Source: Lentzea sp. NBRC 105346 (GTDB lineage Bacteria > Actinomycetota > Actinomycetes > Mycobacteriales > Pseudonocardiaceae). Taken from it: a stretch of 64,000 bases of DNA. The notes below the pieces were generated by a model that ran no database searches, was not told the DNA's origin, and worked only from the letters and a program-made list of their open reading frames with translations. A program made the position numbers and the translations under genes. Numbering within the stretch: the stretch's first letter is position 1; every line of letters begins with the position of its first letter. The DNA lies in NCBI RefSeq assembly GCF_030269605.1, contig NZ_BSTQ01000007.1, positions 62,001 through 126,000 of the forward strand, written 5' to 3'. Shown here in pieces: positions 40,990-49,981 of the stretch.

Positions 40990-41844
40990 TTAGAAAAGCA
41001 CTGTGGCGTACTGACCGACCTGTTCGAACCCGACACGCCGGTACGCGGCCTGTGCCACGTGGTTGTACCCGTTGACGTACAACGAGGCGGTGCGCCCGAG
41101 TCCGCGCAGCAGCCGGTCCGCGACGGCCGCGGTGCCCGCCGTGCCGTAGCCGTGGCCACGCCGGTCCGGCCGCACCCAGACGCCCTGGATCTGGCCGACC
41201 TTCTTGGACAGTGCGCCGATCTCGGCCTTGAAGACGACCTCGCCGCCCTCGAACCGGGCGAACGCCCGGCCGCCCGCGATCAGCTCGGCGACGCGGGCGC
41301 GGTAGCCGGCGCCGCCGTCCTCCGCGCACGGGTCGATGCCGACCTCCTCGATGAACATCGCGATCGCCGCGGGCAGATACCGGTTGAGCTCGTCCGGCCG
41401 CACCTGGCGCACCAGCGGGTCGGCCTTGATCAGCGGCGTCGAGCCGAGCGCCATCAGCGGCTGCTCGGCGCGGACCTCGCGCGCGGGACCCCAGTCCGGC
41501 TGCAGCTCCTCCCACAGCGAGAGCACCTGCTCGGCCGGGCCGACGAGCGACGAGCACATCCGCCCGCGTCTGCGCGCCCGGTCGGCGAACGACCGCATCG
41601 CCGAGGCGTTGCCGCGTAACGGGATGAGGTTCGGCCCGGAGAAGCACAGCCCCTCCACGCGGCCGCCGCGCAGCGACCGGGTGTCGGACGCCCAGATCTC
41701 ACCGCCGAGCCGCCACGGGTCCAAGCCCGCGGTCTCGACCCTTGCGGCCACCATGCACGACGCGACGGGATCATGTTCCAGCACCCCGAGCACCTCGGGC
41801 AGATCCCGTTCGTCGAGCAACCGCGCACCGGCCAGCCTCAGCAC
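40990..41844 (-). CDS. DUF4081 and GNAT acetyltransferase
   Basis: 284 residues: DUF4081 (residues about 10-135) followed by a GNAT domain with acetyl-CoA loop VWVRPDRRGHGYGTAGTAAV and C-terminal YVNGYNHVAQAAYRRVGFEQVG. The same fusion normally lies directly after ispG in actinobacteria. Here it starts 37 bases after the lasso peptidase stop, so it may now be read from the lasso promoter. Substrate unknown. Confidence 0.9.
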   Translation of the reverse strand: MLRLAGARLLDERDLPEVLGVLEHDPVASCMVAARVETAGLDPWRLGGEIWASDTRSLRGGRVEGLCFSGPNLIPLRGNASAMRSFADRARRRGRMCSSLVGPAEQVLSLWEELQPDWGPAREVRAEQPLMALGSTPLIKADPLVRQVRPDELNRYLPAAIAMFIEEVGIDPCAEDGGAGYRARVAELIAGGRAFARFEGGEVVFKAEIGALSKKVGQIQGVWVRPDRRGHGYGTAGTAAVADRLLRGLGRTASLYVNGYNHVAQAAYRRVGFEQVGQYATVLF

Positions 41845-41880
41845 GCCCCCCAGCGTGCCAGACGAGACGGGCCGATCGCA

Positions 41881-42303
41881 TCAGCCAACAGTGCCCGGAC
41901 CGACCACCATGAGTGGTCGCAGCCCGGCCGTCCCATGTGGCTCGCCCACCGCGACGCCATCCACGGCGATCCACGCGTGCGCGTAGAACGGCGACGTGCG
42001 CACTCCGGTGCAGAACGTCGGCCACGTGCCGCGCATCCGGCACAGCAGCGCGGCCGCGAGCGATCTCTGCAGGCAGTACCGCCCGGCGCACATCGTCGAC
42101 ACGGCCACCACGTGCTGCCGCGCGGCAAGCGCTTGCCCGTGCGTGGCGGGCGCGGCACCCCGCCGCAGCCGTTCCAGAATTCGCCTGATCCGGTAAGGCT
42201 TCGCCCGCGCCAGCACCCGCGCGGCGATCACCGCGAGCAACGGCGCGCCCCGCCGCCACACCGGCAGCCGCACCCCTTCGTCGAGCGTGACCGGCGCGCT
42301 CAC
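41881..42303 (-). CDS. Lasso peptide leader peptidase (B2, transglutaminase-like)
   Basis: 140 residues. CAGRYCLQRSLAAALLCR contains the catalytic Cys, FYAHAWIAVDG the His and Asp: the papain/transglutaminase-like triad of lasso B2 proteins, which cut the leader from the precursor. GTG 42303 overlaps the stop of the RRE gene (GTGA), giving tight coupling. No ABC exporter gene is present in the cluster, so export must use another system. Confidence 0.93.
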   Translation of the reverse strand: MSAPVTLDEGVRLPVWRRGAPLLAVIAARVLARAKPYRIRRILERLRRGAAPATHGQALAARQHVVAVSTMCAGRYCLQRSLAAALLCRMRGTWPTFCTGVRTSPFYAHAWIAVDGVAVGEPHGTAGLRPLMVVGPGTVG

Positions 42304-42548
42304 GACCACACCAGCCCACGGTCGATCAGTGCCTCCATGACCTGCTCGACATCCCGTGCGATCCGCTCCGCCGCGCCGGGATACCGCTGGACCAGCGACG
42401 ACACCGGGTCGCCGCCGCTCTGCAACACCCGCAACACGGCCACGCCGGTGGTGTTGAGCTGGAAGTACCGGCCGGTGCGCTCGTCGAGCAGCACCATCCC
42501 GTCCCCGGTCTCAGCGAACGACACGTGCGGTTCGAGTTGCCACTTCAC
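42300..42548 (-). CDS. Lasso peptide RRE protein (B1, PqqD-like)
   Basis: 82 residues from GTG 42548 (42563 possible). The winged-helix RiPP recognition element shows the PqqD pattern MVLLDERTGRYFQLNTTGVAVL and RDVEQVMEALIDRGLV. B1 binds the leader motif YxxPxLxxxG and presents the precursor to the peptidase and cyclase. It overlaps the end of the cyclase gene by 38 bases and the start of the peptidase gene by 4. Confidence 0.93.
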   Translation of the reverse strand: MKWQLEPHVSFAETGDGMVLLDERTGRYFQLNTTGVAVLRVLQSGGDPVSSLVQRYPGAAERIARDVEQVMEALIDRGLVWS

Positions 42549-44286
42549 GCAGCCACACCTCACAGGCCAGAGTGCTTTCCAGGGCGATCACGCCCAGGTT
42601 GTCCCGATGAACCCCGACGAGGACGTCCCGCACGCCCGCCGGGTCGATCAGCCCGAGCCGGGCCAGTTCCGAGTCCTCGAAGAGCCGGGCGATCGCGGCC
42701 CGGTTGCGGCGCAGCCCGAGGTGGACCTCCGAGCTGAACTCGCCCTTCGTCCGCCGGCCGAGCACATCGTCCGGCACGATCCCGCGCATCGCGGCGGCCA
42801 GCAGCGGCTTGTAGCGCACCGGGCCGGCGTGGTCGGACTGCCGCACGGACAGCACGGCCTCCACCACGCGGTCGTCCAGGAACGGCGTCGCGGTCCGCAC
42901 GCCGAACCGGCGCATCAGCCGGTCCGTGAGCCGGGCGTTCGCGGCACAGGTCCGGACCCCTTCCAGCATCGTGTGCGCGGCCCGGTCCCGGCCGAGCGGC
43001 TCCGGTTCGTCGACGGATCTCAGCTGGTCAGCGGCCAGTTCGGCGGCGAGCGGGGTCGCCCACGGTGGCAGGTGCAGCGGTGCGACCCACGACATGTCGA
43101 GCACGCCGGACGCCCGCTCGGGCGTGCCGATGCCCGCGATGGCGTCGAGCACGTTCGCCCGGTACGACCGGCGGTCGGCGAGCGCGCGCACGATCTGCCC
43201 GAGCGGCCAGCGCGCGAACCGGCGGTACGCCCGCACCGACCGCAGTGCCTGCCACGGCCGGGTCCGCACGAGCGTGTGCAGGTGGTGCACCCACGGGCGG
43301 AACAGTTCGTCGCCGCCGGCGCCGGTGAAATGGGCGACCGATCCGGCGGCGGCCATCCGCACCGCCTGATCCTGCAGCCGCCACCGGTTGCGGATCCAGC
43401 CGTGCGGCTGTTCCAAATCAGTCCAGACGGCGTCGAACCCACCGAACGCCGAAGGCAGTTCACCGACATCCAGAACCTGGTGTTTCGAATTGAGATATGC
43501 GGCCGCCCGACCGGCCCATTCCACGTCATCAAAATCGGCGTCCGGCGCGGACATTACCTGCGTTACGAATTCACCCGGACGATACGCGTCGAGCAGAAAG
43601 CAGATCGACGTCGAGTCCATTCCACCTGACAGGTCGGCGCTCATCGAAGGCGCGAGCCGGGCCGCCACGGCATACCGCAACGCGCCGCGCACCAGCGGCA
43701 CGCCCTCGGCCAGCGACCGTTCCGGGGCCGGCGGCGTCCACCACCGCTCCACGCGGTGCCCCCCGCCCGGCCTGGTGTGCAACACCGAATCGGGTGGCAC
43801 CCGGCGTACCCCGCGCCACGCCGGCACGTCACCGAGCTGCCCGGCGCCGCGGGTCAGCAGCTGCACCGCGACCACCGCCGGATCGACGCCGTCGCTCGCC
43901 AGGAGGTCGTCCCGGTCGGCGGCGACGGGCACGCCGTCGATCAGCGAATAGCTGACTCGCCGCAGGCCAGAGACCATGCCGCGTACCGACAGACACCCGT
44001 CGACGGCCGCGACGAGATGCCACTCGCCGCGCAGCAGCCCGGCGATCTCGTCCAGCGAGCGGCCGCGCAACGCCGAGGCCGTGACCGAGGTGACGCCCAG
44101 GACAGCGATCTGGACGCCCCGCTCGGTCACGCGCACCAGCCGGTCGTCCGCCCAGCGCCCGAGCAGCCACGGGCGCCCCGACGGGTGGTCGATCCGCTGG
44201 GGCGCCCGCGCGAGGAACCCCCGGACCGCGTGTGCCTCGCGGTCGCCGTCGGCCACCGCGACGAACCAGTCCAAAGATTCCGTCAT
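42511..44286 (-). CDS. Lasso peptide macrolactam synthetase (C, asparagine synthetase-like)
   Basis: 591 residues. An N-terminal glutaminase-like domain without the catalytic Cys2 (starts MTESLDW) and a C-terminal synthetase domain with the ATP pyrophosphatase motif SADLSGGMDSTS (about residue 222). Lasso C proteins adenylate the ring Asp/Glu side chain and join it to the new N-terminal amine. ATG 44286 is 6 bases after the precursor stop. Together with A, B1 and B2 this is a complete class II type lasso set. Confidence 0.95.
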   Translation of the reverse strand: MTESLDWFVAVADGDREAHAVRGFLARAPQRIDHPSGRPWLLGRWADDRLVRVTERGVQIAVLGVTSVTASALRGRSLDEIAGLLRGEWHLVAAVDGCLSVRGMVSGLRRVSYSLIDGVPVAADRDDLLASDGVDPAVVAVQLLTRGAGQLGDVPAWRGVRRVPPDSVLHTRPGGGHRVERWWTPPAPERSLAEGVPLVRGALRYAVAARLAPSMSADLSGGMDSTSICFLLDAYRPGEFVTQVMSAPDADFDDVEWAGRAAAYLNSKHQVLDVGELPSAFGGFDAVWTDLEQPHGWIRNRWRLQDQAVRMAAAGSVAHFTGAGGDELFRPWVHHLHTLVRTRPWQALRSVRAYRRFARWPLGQIVRALADRRSYRANVLDAIAGIGTPERASGVLDMSWVAPLHLPPWATPLAAELAADQLRSVDEPEPLGRDRAAHTMLEGVRTCAANARLTDRLMRRFGVRTATPFLDDRVVEAVLSVRQSDHAGPVRYKPLLAAAMRGIVPDDVLGRRTKGEFSSEVHLGLRRNRAAIARLFEDSELARLGLIDPAGVRDVLVGVHRDNLGVIALESTLACEVWLREVATRTARVVR

Positions 44287-44292
44287 GGTGAA

Positions 44293-44418
44293 TTACAGGT
44301 ATTCCCACCGAGCGTGGGTACCGTCAAATGAGATACCCATGCTGCCACCCATGGTCAGTTCCTCGTGGTCACCCAGTTCCACCAGTGCCGGCGGCTCGTA
44401 AATCGCGTCGAACTCCAT
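44293..44418 (-). CDS. Lasso peptide precursor
   Basis: 41 residues. Leader residues 1-23 contain YEPPALVELGDHEELT, the conserved YxxPxLxxxGxxxxxT recognised by the RRE protein, with Thr at the next-to-last leader position. The predicted core (residues 24-41) is GGSMGISFDGTHARWEYL: Gly1 amine to Asp9 side chain would close a 9-residue ring, leaving a 9-residue loop and tail with bulky Arg14, Trp15 and Tyr17 as possible plugs. There is no cysteine, hence class II. AAGGAGA lies 7 bases upstream of ATG 44418. Confidence 0.93.
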   Translation of the reverse strand: MEFDAIYEPPALVELGDHEELTMGGSMGISFDGTHARWEYL

Positions 44419-44454
44419 GGCAGTTCTCCTTCGAAAATGAGGGGACTGCCCATA

Positions 44455-44483
44455 TGCCTATCCAATCCCAATTCGAAGGTCAA
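44455..44483 (-). promoter_or_regulatory. Promoter of the lasso cluster
   Basis: Minus strand: TTGACC (44483-44478), exactly 17 bases, TAGGCA (44460-44455), a strong match to actinobacterial SigA/HrdB promoters. The start would be near 44447, about 30 bases before the precursor ATG. Confidence 0.7.
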
Positions 44484-44502
44484 GCTTCTCGATCATCGTT
44501 AC

Positions 44503-44539
44503 GAAAAAACGGACACCTTCCGGATAGGAAGGCGTCCGT
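44503..44539 (-). terminator. Intrinsic terminator of ispG
   Basis: Minus strand: ACGGACGCCTTCC (44539-44527), 5-base loop, GGAAGGTGTCCGT (44521-44509), then TTTTT and CG. A 13-bp stem (one G-U) with a T-run, 25 bases past the ispG stop. It separates ispG from the lasso genes. Confidence 0.92.
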
Positions 44540-44563
44540 TCGTGTGTGCCGAAAGTTGCGAAA

Positions 44564-45712
44564 TCAGCCGACTGAGACGACCGGCTCGCCGCCGGCCTCC
44601 ATGTCCTCCGCGATCCGCATGGCCTCTTCGATGAGCGTCTCGACGATCTGGTGCTCGGGCACGGTCTTGATGACCTTGCCCTTCACGAAGATCTGGCCCT
44701 TGCCGTTGCCGGACGCGACACCCAGGTCCGCCTCGCGGGCCTCACCGGGCCCGTTCACGACGCAGCCCATGACCGCGACGCGCAGCGGCACCTCCATGCC
44801 CTCCAGGCCGGCGGTCACCTGCTCGGCGAGCGTGTAGACGTCCACCTGCGCGCGGCCGCACGACGGGCACGACACGATCTCCAGCTTGCGCGGCCGCAGG
44901 TTCAGCGACTGCAAGATCTGGTGCCCGACCTTGATCTCCTCGACCGGCGGCGCGGACAGCGACACCCGGATCGTGTCGCCGATGCCCTGCCGCAGCAGCG
45001 CGCCGAACGCCACCGCCGACTTGATCGTGCCCTGGAACGCCGGGCCGGCCTCCGTGACGCCGAGGTGCAGCGGATAGTCGCACTGCTCGGCCAGGATCTC
45101 GTACGCCCGGACCATGACCACCGGATCGTTGTGCTTCACCGAGATCTTGATGTCGTGGAAGTCGTGCTCCGCGAACAGCGAGGCCTCCCACAGCGCCGAC
45201 TCCGCCAGCGCCTCGGGCGTGGCCTTGCCGTACTTCTGCATCAGGCGCGGGTCGAGCGAACCGGCGTTGACGCCGATGCGGATCGGCGTGTTGTGGTCGC
45301 GGGCCGCCTGCGCGATCTCCTTGACCTTGTCGTCGAACTTCTTGATGTTGCCGGGGTTCACCCGCACCGCGGCGCAGCCCGCCTCGATCGCGGCGAACAC
45401 GTACTTCGGCTGGAAGTGGATGTCCGCGATCACCGGGATCTGCGACTTCTTCGCGATCGCCGGCAGCGCGTCCGCGTCGTCCTGCGACGGGCACGCGACG
45501 CGCACGATGTCACAGCCCGCGGCCGTCAGCTCGGCGATCTGCTGCAGTGTGGCGTTGACGTCCGCGGTCAGCGTGGTCGTCATGGACTGGACGGACACCG
45601 GGAACTCACTCCCGACGCCGACGTTTCCCACCATGAGCTGCCTCGTCTTGCGACGTTCCGACAGCACCGGAGGCGGCAATGCCGGCATTCCGAGCATCAC
45701 GCCGTCACTCAT
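44564..45712 (-). CDS. ispG: 4-hydroxy-3-methylbut-2-enyl diphosphate synthase
   Basis: 382 residues. TIM-barrel part opens with [19 protein letters not shown] and the C-terminal part binds a 4Fe-4S cluster through Cys in [12 protein letters not shown] and [12 protein letters not shown] plus a Glu. It converts the cyclic diphosphate MEcPP to HMBPP in the non-mevalonate pathway. ATG 45712 (MSDGVMLG) is preferred over an upstream start at 45730. It follows rseP by 17 bases. Confidence 0.97.
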
Positions 45713-48642: not shown

Positions 48643-49950
48643 CTAGTCCTCGGCCGGCACGAACTCGCCGTCCACCCGCTCGAACGCCGATCCCGGCGGC
48701 TGATCGAACACCGCCTCCAGCGCGGGGTCCGCGCCGATCAGCTCGCGCAACGGCAGGATCGTGGCGTTCGAGGCGTCGTCCGCGTACTCCTGCGTCTCGT
48801 CGCCGGCGAACACACGCCAACCACTGTCCTCGTCGCGGCCAGGCTCTTCGCGGTACAGCCACGCGGCGTGGGCACCGTCGCGCGCCACGCGGGCGGACAC
48901 GATCGCCATCCTCGCGAGGTCGCCGAAATACAACCGTTCGAACCGTCGCTGGCGCGCCACGATCTCCGGCGCTCCCAGCTCCACTCGGACACGCAACAAC
49001 GTGCCGTCCTCGGCGAGGTCGCGGTACACCGGGAACGCACCGTCACCCCAACTGGTGAACCAGCCGGTCATCAGCGCGCCGCCGACCTCGACGTCCCCGG
49101 ACTCGGTCGCGGACGAACGCATCGGCTTCAGCAGGCGATAGTGGTCGTCGTGCGGCCGCAGGTCGAACGCGAACTTCACACCATCGCCCCGCAACGACTC
49201 CAGCTGGTGGTACCGGGACCGCATCTCGTCGAAGGTGAGATCGGCCCAGAGGTACTCGTCCTCCACTTTGGAACCAGCGAGCCTCGTGGCGACCTGCTCC
49301 GCGTCCGCGCCCCAGAACGCGAGGTCGAAGAGCCCGTCAACCGGTTCGTCGTTGACCCAAGTGTTCAACGCGGCCGGATCCGCGAACATCAGCCGCGCCT
49401 CGTCGACCAGCACGTATCCGGCTTCGATGGACTCCGCGGGCACACCCTCCGCGCACTCCACCCACACCGAGTGCCACCGCTCCTGGTCCGGCCCCGGCTC
49501 CATCCGCTCACCCAGCACCCGCAACGGCCCGGCAGGCAGACCACGCACCGCCACACCCCAGCCGCCGTGGAACGGCACCTCGGCACCGCCGGGCAGATCG
49601 TCGAGCAGCCGCTGCACCCGCGTGTAGTGCGGCATCCTCGGCACCTGCCGCACGGTCGCTTCGAGTCCGGTGAGCGCCACCGCCTCGACTACAGGGTCAC
49701 CGTCCTGCGGCACGTCGAAGACGTACCGGCCCTTGACGGCGGCAAGGCTCAGGCGTGCGGCGGCTTCGGCCGCCTGCGGGCCGACGATCTCGAAGTCCGC
49801 AGCGGCGTTCGCCTTCGCCACGACCACTGGTGGCGCGAGTTCCTCGGGAAGCAACGGTGGCTGATCACCCGACCACAGCCGGAGCAAGCCGAAGTCGATC
49901 AGCAGCAGATCACCTGACGGGAAGGACGCGCTCCCCAGCAACTCCGTCAT
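48643..49950 (-). CDS. DUF4241 and DUF2185 protein
   Basis: 435 residues. The segment GWFTSWGDGAFPVYRDLAEDGTLLRVRVELGAP matches DUF4241 around its core SWGDGAFPVYRDL, and the C-terminal SARVARDGAHAAWLYREEP and SGWRVFAGDETQEYAD match DUF2185 (an immunity-protein-like module). The N-terminal 250 residues are unassigned. DUF2185 and DUF4241 occur in toxin-immunity settings, but no toxin gene is adjacent. ATG 49950. Role unknown. Confidence 0.7.
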   Translation of the reverse strand: MTELLGSASFPSGDLLLIDFGLLRLWSGDQPPLLPEELAPPVVVAKANAAADFEIVGPQAAEAAARLSLAAVKGRYVFDVPQDGDPVVEAVALTGLEATVRQVPRMPHYTRVQRLLDDLPGGAEVPFHGGWGVAVRGLPAGPLRVLGERMEPGPDQERWHSVWVECAEGVPAESIEAGYVLVDEARLMFADPAALNTWVNDEPVDGLFDLAFWGADAEQVATRLAGSKVEDEYLWADLTFDEMRSRYHQLESLRGDGVKFAFDLRPHDDHYRLLKPMRSSATESGDVEVGGALMTGWFTSWGDGAFPVYRDLAEDGTLLRVRVELGAPEIVARQRRFERLYFGDLARMAIVSARVARDGAHAAWLYREEPGRDEDSGWRVFAGDETQEYADDASNATILPLRELIGADPALEAVFDQPPGSAFERVDGEFVPAED

Positions 49951-49981
49951 GCGGCACATCGTGCCATTCAGCAGGGCTGCC

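Follow-up and report, generated by a model that had tools for sequence, protein, structure and literature searches.

A four-gene lasso peptide cluster of Lentzea sp. NBRC 105346 with a predicted core and a probable insertion site between ispG and a GNAT gene

Class II lasso peptides are defined by a cysteine-free core, and the fusilassin/fuscanodin system of Thermobifida fusca has split B1 and B2 proteins; we take its core to be unrelated to the one described here (GGSMGISFDGTHARWEYL). Excerpts of PMC8498205 give the lasso ring seven to nine residues, and excerpts of a survey of Lentzea genomes report citrulassin and achromosin lasso clusters (PMC9120177). A first-pass annotation of a 64,000-nucleotide stretch of the Lentzea sp. 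NBRC 105346 genome (contig NZ_BSTQ01000007.1, positions 62,001 to 126,000; hereafter the window) had claimed a complete lasso cluster with a predicted new core peptide at 41881–44418. Open reading frames and family matches confirm a cluster at that place, on the minus strand, and "complete" is right for the minimal set of A, C, B1, and B2 genes. Judged by their sequences, the four genes form a real lasso cluster belonging to a well-known class, to which the predicted core is the addition. We consider it highly probable that this is a four-gene class II cluster whose precursor is cut after Met(-1) and closed through a Gly1–Asp9 ring, the genes probably having been inserted in this lineage.

ORF calls and translation place lasA, lasC, lasB1, and lasB2 in that order from 44418 down to 41881. 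The precursor gene lasA (44293..44418, minus strand) encodes 41 residues, with the leader MEFDAIYEPPALVELGDHEELTM and the predicted core GGSMGISFDGTHARWEYL. It is followed on the same strand by an asparagine-synthetase-like lasso cyclase with the PP-loop SGGMDS (lasC, 42511..44286; 591 aa), a stand-alone RRE of the PqqD family (lasB1, 42300..42563; 87 aa), and a transglutaminase-like leader peptidase (lasB2, 41881..42309; 142 aa). The genes overlap or abut, as had been noted: 6 nt separate the lasA stop from the lasC start, and the lasC/lasB1 and lasB1/lasB2 joints overlap. Read by eye, the true start of lasB2 is likely at 42303, because this gives a 4-nt GTGA overlap and many aligned homologs begin near there; that of lasB1 is perhaps at 42548. 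A ribosome-binding-like AAGGAG (44426-44431), also read by eye, lies 7 nt before the lasA ATG.

Likeness to the fusilassin/fuscanodin system is seen in lasB1, which among solved structures matches TfuB1 (6jx3) at 4.5e-9 and TbiB1 (5v1u) at 0.005; with scores of 79.9 bits against NF033530 (cut-off 70) and 47.5 against PF05402, its product is identified as a PqqD-like B1 RRE. Two designed trefoil proteins also matched by lasB1 (1.1e-4 and 0.09) were taken as chance. The lasB2 product has the character of a B2 transglutaminase-like peptidase (NF033537, 106.3 bits against a cut-off of 33; PF13471, 83.1), and the Cys of RYCLQRS and the His of AHAW sit in conserved alignment columns. The match of lasC to the Pfam Asn_synthase family (PF00733, 130.1 bits, cut-off 21) and its agreement with the consensus at each of the 38 columns conserved to 95% or more in an alignment of 50 cyclases (lasC included) identify a C macrolactam synthetase, though none of the NCBIfam models that lasC matched did so above its curated cut-off; against solved structures it had no match at 0.001. 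Taken together, these matches and that of lasA (below) show the identities of the four genes at the level of sequence.

The best NCBIfam match of lasC, and its best lasso cyclase model, is that of the albusnodin/ikarugamycin-family macrolactam cyclases (NF033561), yet its 226.6 bits stay below the cut-off of 300 for membership; lasA likewise falls short of the cut-off of NF033525, the albusnodin precursor model (17.1 versus 30). The albusnodin-like locus of this genome is a different one (L004/L107), whose precursor, ending LTLGGPGGGKEDKRREVG, presumably resembles albusnodin. That lasC is under the lasso cyclase cut-offs, and that threading is not readable from a sequence, might suggest enzymes yielding an unthreaded, branched-cyclic, or other non-lasso peptide. 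We hold this exceedingly improbable, since the gene order and families are those of many retrieved lasso loci and lasA matches the lasso leader model. Several congeners carry citrulassin-type clusters with cyclases about 40% identical to lasC, but these stand in a separate clade; their cores are of the type LLGxxGNDRLILSKN, which we assume to be citrulassins.

In a tree of 50 cyclases, lasC groups with the cyclase of a lasso locus in genome G041 (L071/L098; support 97/94). This sister locus belongs to the same family and has the same A-C-B1-B2 order, a leader that ends in ELTM, and a core that starts with GG. It differs in that its cyclase is just 42–44% identical to lasC, its core (GGVGTVFDTWGLTPIP) has fewer residues and carries Asp at position 8, and neither ispG nor the GNAT gene that flank the window cluster had a match in the surrounding 18 kb. 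The tree leaves out repeat stretches of loci already included (L038, L039, L098, and L099), two loci whose cyclase is cut by the locus end (L015 and L040), and five added later (L100–L104); distant Asn-synthetase matches (L018–L037) were used neither for the tree nor for precursors. Two pairs are identical in it: the G011 cyclase at C35:235690-237423 (L042) with L009 of Lentzea xinjiangensis (NZ_FOFR01000013.1), and the genus-member cyclase L041 with L017 of Nocardia sp. NRRL S-836. Other arrangements were observed among the loci, including one of like gene order (L100:1202 onward) whose precursor, ending LTLGNGGGGVDTFWECWFWCDRP, has two core cysteines, two (L040 and L016) with two adjacent lasso-like precursors ahead of one cyclase in each, and one (L108:7826-8533) with B1-like and B2-like domains in a single open frame, probably a fused B protein.

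Across searches, the closest cyclase relatives of lasC are about 42–46% identical to it. Of the 24 genus genomes, 8 (own included) gave a cyclase match at 1e-60. No match was close, the best outside the window locus (44%) being in its own genome. At family level, 50 of 390 genomes match at 1e-95 (own included), with G041 the best other by E-value at 44% and G196 at 46%; at order level, 6 of 397 genomes drawn from a larger group match at 1e-108 with 42–44% identity (own included), three candidates per genome having been scored in both searches. Among the 31 loci returned by a search of contigs, the best actinobacterial cyclase is 42% identical along most of its length; the patterns of this search are limited to close relatives, and records lying very near this genome may be absent from it. 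Counting the own genome in each, lasA has matches in 3 of 149 relatives, in 7 of 390 genomes of the family, and in 1 of 396 of the phylum, where the own genome alone matched; the best match beyond it in these overlapping sets is 63% over residues 2–32. Neither the core GGSMGISFDGTHARWEYL nor five fragments of it were found in the literature searched. The claim of a new core is thus supported within the literature and genomes searched, a comparison that stands apart from curated lasso-peptide databases.

The leader features proposed in the first-pass annotation (YxxPxLxxxG and Thr at -2) are borne out by the translation: lasA reads YEPPALVELG...TM, with Tyr at -17, Pro at -14, Leu at -12, and Thr at -2, and an NCBIfam profile search places it above the cut-off of the lasso precursor model NF033521 (26.2 bits versus 19). 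The core carries Gly1 and Asp9, so the proposed ring is allowed; Asp9, able to bond to residue 1, is the sole acid at positions 7–9, Glu16 is the only further one, and the core has no cysteine, as in class II. For the cyclized 18-mer, recomputation gave an [M+H]+ of 1965.8912 and an [M+2H]2+ of 983.4492, in agreement with the earlier hand-calculated values of about 1965.9 and 983.4. A precursor-like regular expression, composed after the lasA precursor had been seen, matched once in the window versus 0 matches in 20 triplet shuffles of it.

Excerpts of PMC10368454 place YxxPxL at -17 to -12 in that study's own precursor set and state that Thr(-2) occurred in all earlier reported precursors; they also report Ile(-2) exceptions, so Thr(-2) is not universal. 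A tblastn search with lasA found matches in 16 other distinct loci, and all 16 related precursors have Thr two residues before the core start; Asp or Glu stands at position 8 in 8 of the 16 and at position 9 in 8 of the 16, and one (L040) would start its core with Asp as residue 1. This set did not demand Thr but favors similar leaders, and it is a biased sample because its members were found by likeness to lasA. A Thr(-2) tally over all pattern-found precursors was dropped as circular, since the pattern itself demanded Thr.

The Gly-Gly opening of the core and the eight-residue rings expected in 8 of the 16 related precursors could also fit a cut one residue later, which would give a 17-mer with a Gly1–Asp8 ring of eight residues and an [M+H]+ of about 1908.87 (one glycine subtracted). 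Thr would then stand at -3 and Tyr at -18, contrary to the register of all 16 related precursors and of the PMC10368454 excerpts; moreover, the sister locus L071 also has TM before and GG after the cleavage point, and there Thr(-2) yields a normal Gly1–Asp8 ring. We judge the later cut very unlikely.

With cleavage after Met(-1), a pathway can be proposed in which cleavage site and ring partner are predicted from the rules of the family. LasB1 would bind the LasA leader at its YxxPxLxxxG motif and pass LasA to LasB2, which would cleave after Thr(-2)-Met(-1). LasC would then use ATP to activate the Asp9 side chain, and the freed Gly1 amine would close a ring of nine residues (GGSMGISFD) encircling the tail (GTHARWEYL), in which bulky residues would act as plugs (candidates Arg14, Trp15, and Tyr17). 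Threading, export, and activity of the peptide are likewise predictions. Pfam scans of ten flanking ORFs, with hits in nine, showed no transporter, so none of these genes accounts for export.

The cluster is flanked by ispG (GcpE in Pfam) and a GNAT gene; the latter was found in 23 of the 24 genomes of the genus, this one and 22 congeners. In 20 of the 22 congeners, those with both flanks readable, the gap between ispG and the GNAT gene is only 117–1078 bp (stop codon included), which suggests that the cluster is probably a lineage-specific insertion between the two; L057 and L066, with no ispG in the fetched stretch, are outside the gap count, and the longest gap, 1078 bp, is that of L061 (G008). 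Loss of the cluster in other congeners, rather than insertion here, is less likely. The proposed insertion junction, GCACTGTTGGCTGATG (41879..41894, minus strand), has the last lasB2 codons and stop inside a block that congeners conserve upstream of the GNAT gene, and GTTGGCTGAT[GC] has an exact match within the 75 bp upstream of that gene in 20 of the 22 congeners. We infer that the insertion occurred just upstream of the conserved block, the TGA of which would serve as the lasB2 stop. The congeners share two well-conserved blocks ahead of the GNAT gene, one around GTTGGCTGATG and the other around ATCTGGCACGCT (window 41844-41895). GC3 is 0.873 in lasC, 0.886 in lasB1, and 0.867 in lasB2, versus 0.943 in ispG and 0.923 in the GNAT gene; with just two genes serving for comparison, this slight difference is no guide to a foreign origin. 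Among plasmids, lasA had no match and lasC matched 50 records, all at less than 60% identity; plasmids thus yielded no source for the cluster. Beyond dxr, some 4 kb away from the cluster, lies a gene whose product carries an Imm33 immunity-type domain at its C terminus (window 48643-49959).

Between ispG and lasA lies a terminator-like hairpin (44507..44541, minus strand) of 15 pairs with a 5-nt loop, followed by a T run; the fold of 44480-44566, a stretch picked by eye, has -33.4 kcal/mol (z = -4.14, with 0 of 200 shuffles as good). Mechanical scans of 41700-44700 returned no promoter and no terminator, so the possible lasA promoter TTGACC-17-TAGGCA (44455..44483, minus strand), read by eye only, is a weak candidate. 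The empty promoter scan is one of several features that would suit an intact cluster that is silent or decaying, an orphan insertion without expression or export. Others are the lack of a transporter among the flanking ORFs scanned, the lack of any cyclase above 44% identity outside this locus in the 24 genomes of the genus, an end branch of 0.9 for lasC versus a median of 0.34 in the cyclase tree, and a lasB2 stop apparently taken from recipient sequence. Against this, all four frames are intact, conserved residues are retained, and the ribosome-binding-like site ahead of lasA is good; we regard a silent cluster as unlikely but by no means negligible.

The genome has six NF033537 matches, all above cut-off, which coincide with the six loci where a cyclase homolog was found (L001–L006), and candidate precursors were read at all six. 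The cores besides that of the window are GWGISGYDLEDEFP (L002), GNGWLFTDAGAGIAKF (L003), GGPGGGKEDKRREVG (L004), and GNSSGSNDANGRGHG (L005); the L006 candidate is ambiguous and has no Thr at -2. At L002 (L002/L105, G000:C2:716650-721395), the precursor, cyclase, and B2 frames are intact and B2 comes directly after the cyclase, unlike in its sister loci in the tree (L088 and L094), which retain B1 between the two. A PqqD search of the whole genome found nine places, seven of them over cut-off, and all nine outside the regions of L002 and L004; both regions were also empty for a profile of B1 relatives at E up to 10, and no RRE was detected in 15 kb around L004/L107. With no RRE detected in cis, L002 may have to borrow one in trans. 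The LasB1 of the window is one of several RRE candidates in the genome for this, and it seems rather doubtful that it serves two lasso pathways, L002 included; a divergent RRE at L002 could have escaped detection.

The cluster enlarges an already large known class by a predicted core whose exact mass can be looked for. It is also a probable example of biosynthetic genes that have settled in a housekeeping region, with a junction that can be read. With six lasso loci, one of them without a detected RRE, the genome is also a test bed for the sharing or mutual exclusion of recognition proteins among lasso pathways, a question related to one raised in excerpts of PMC13381572.
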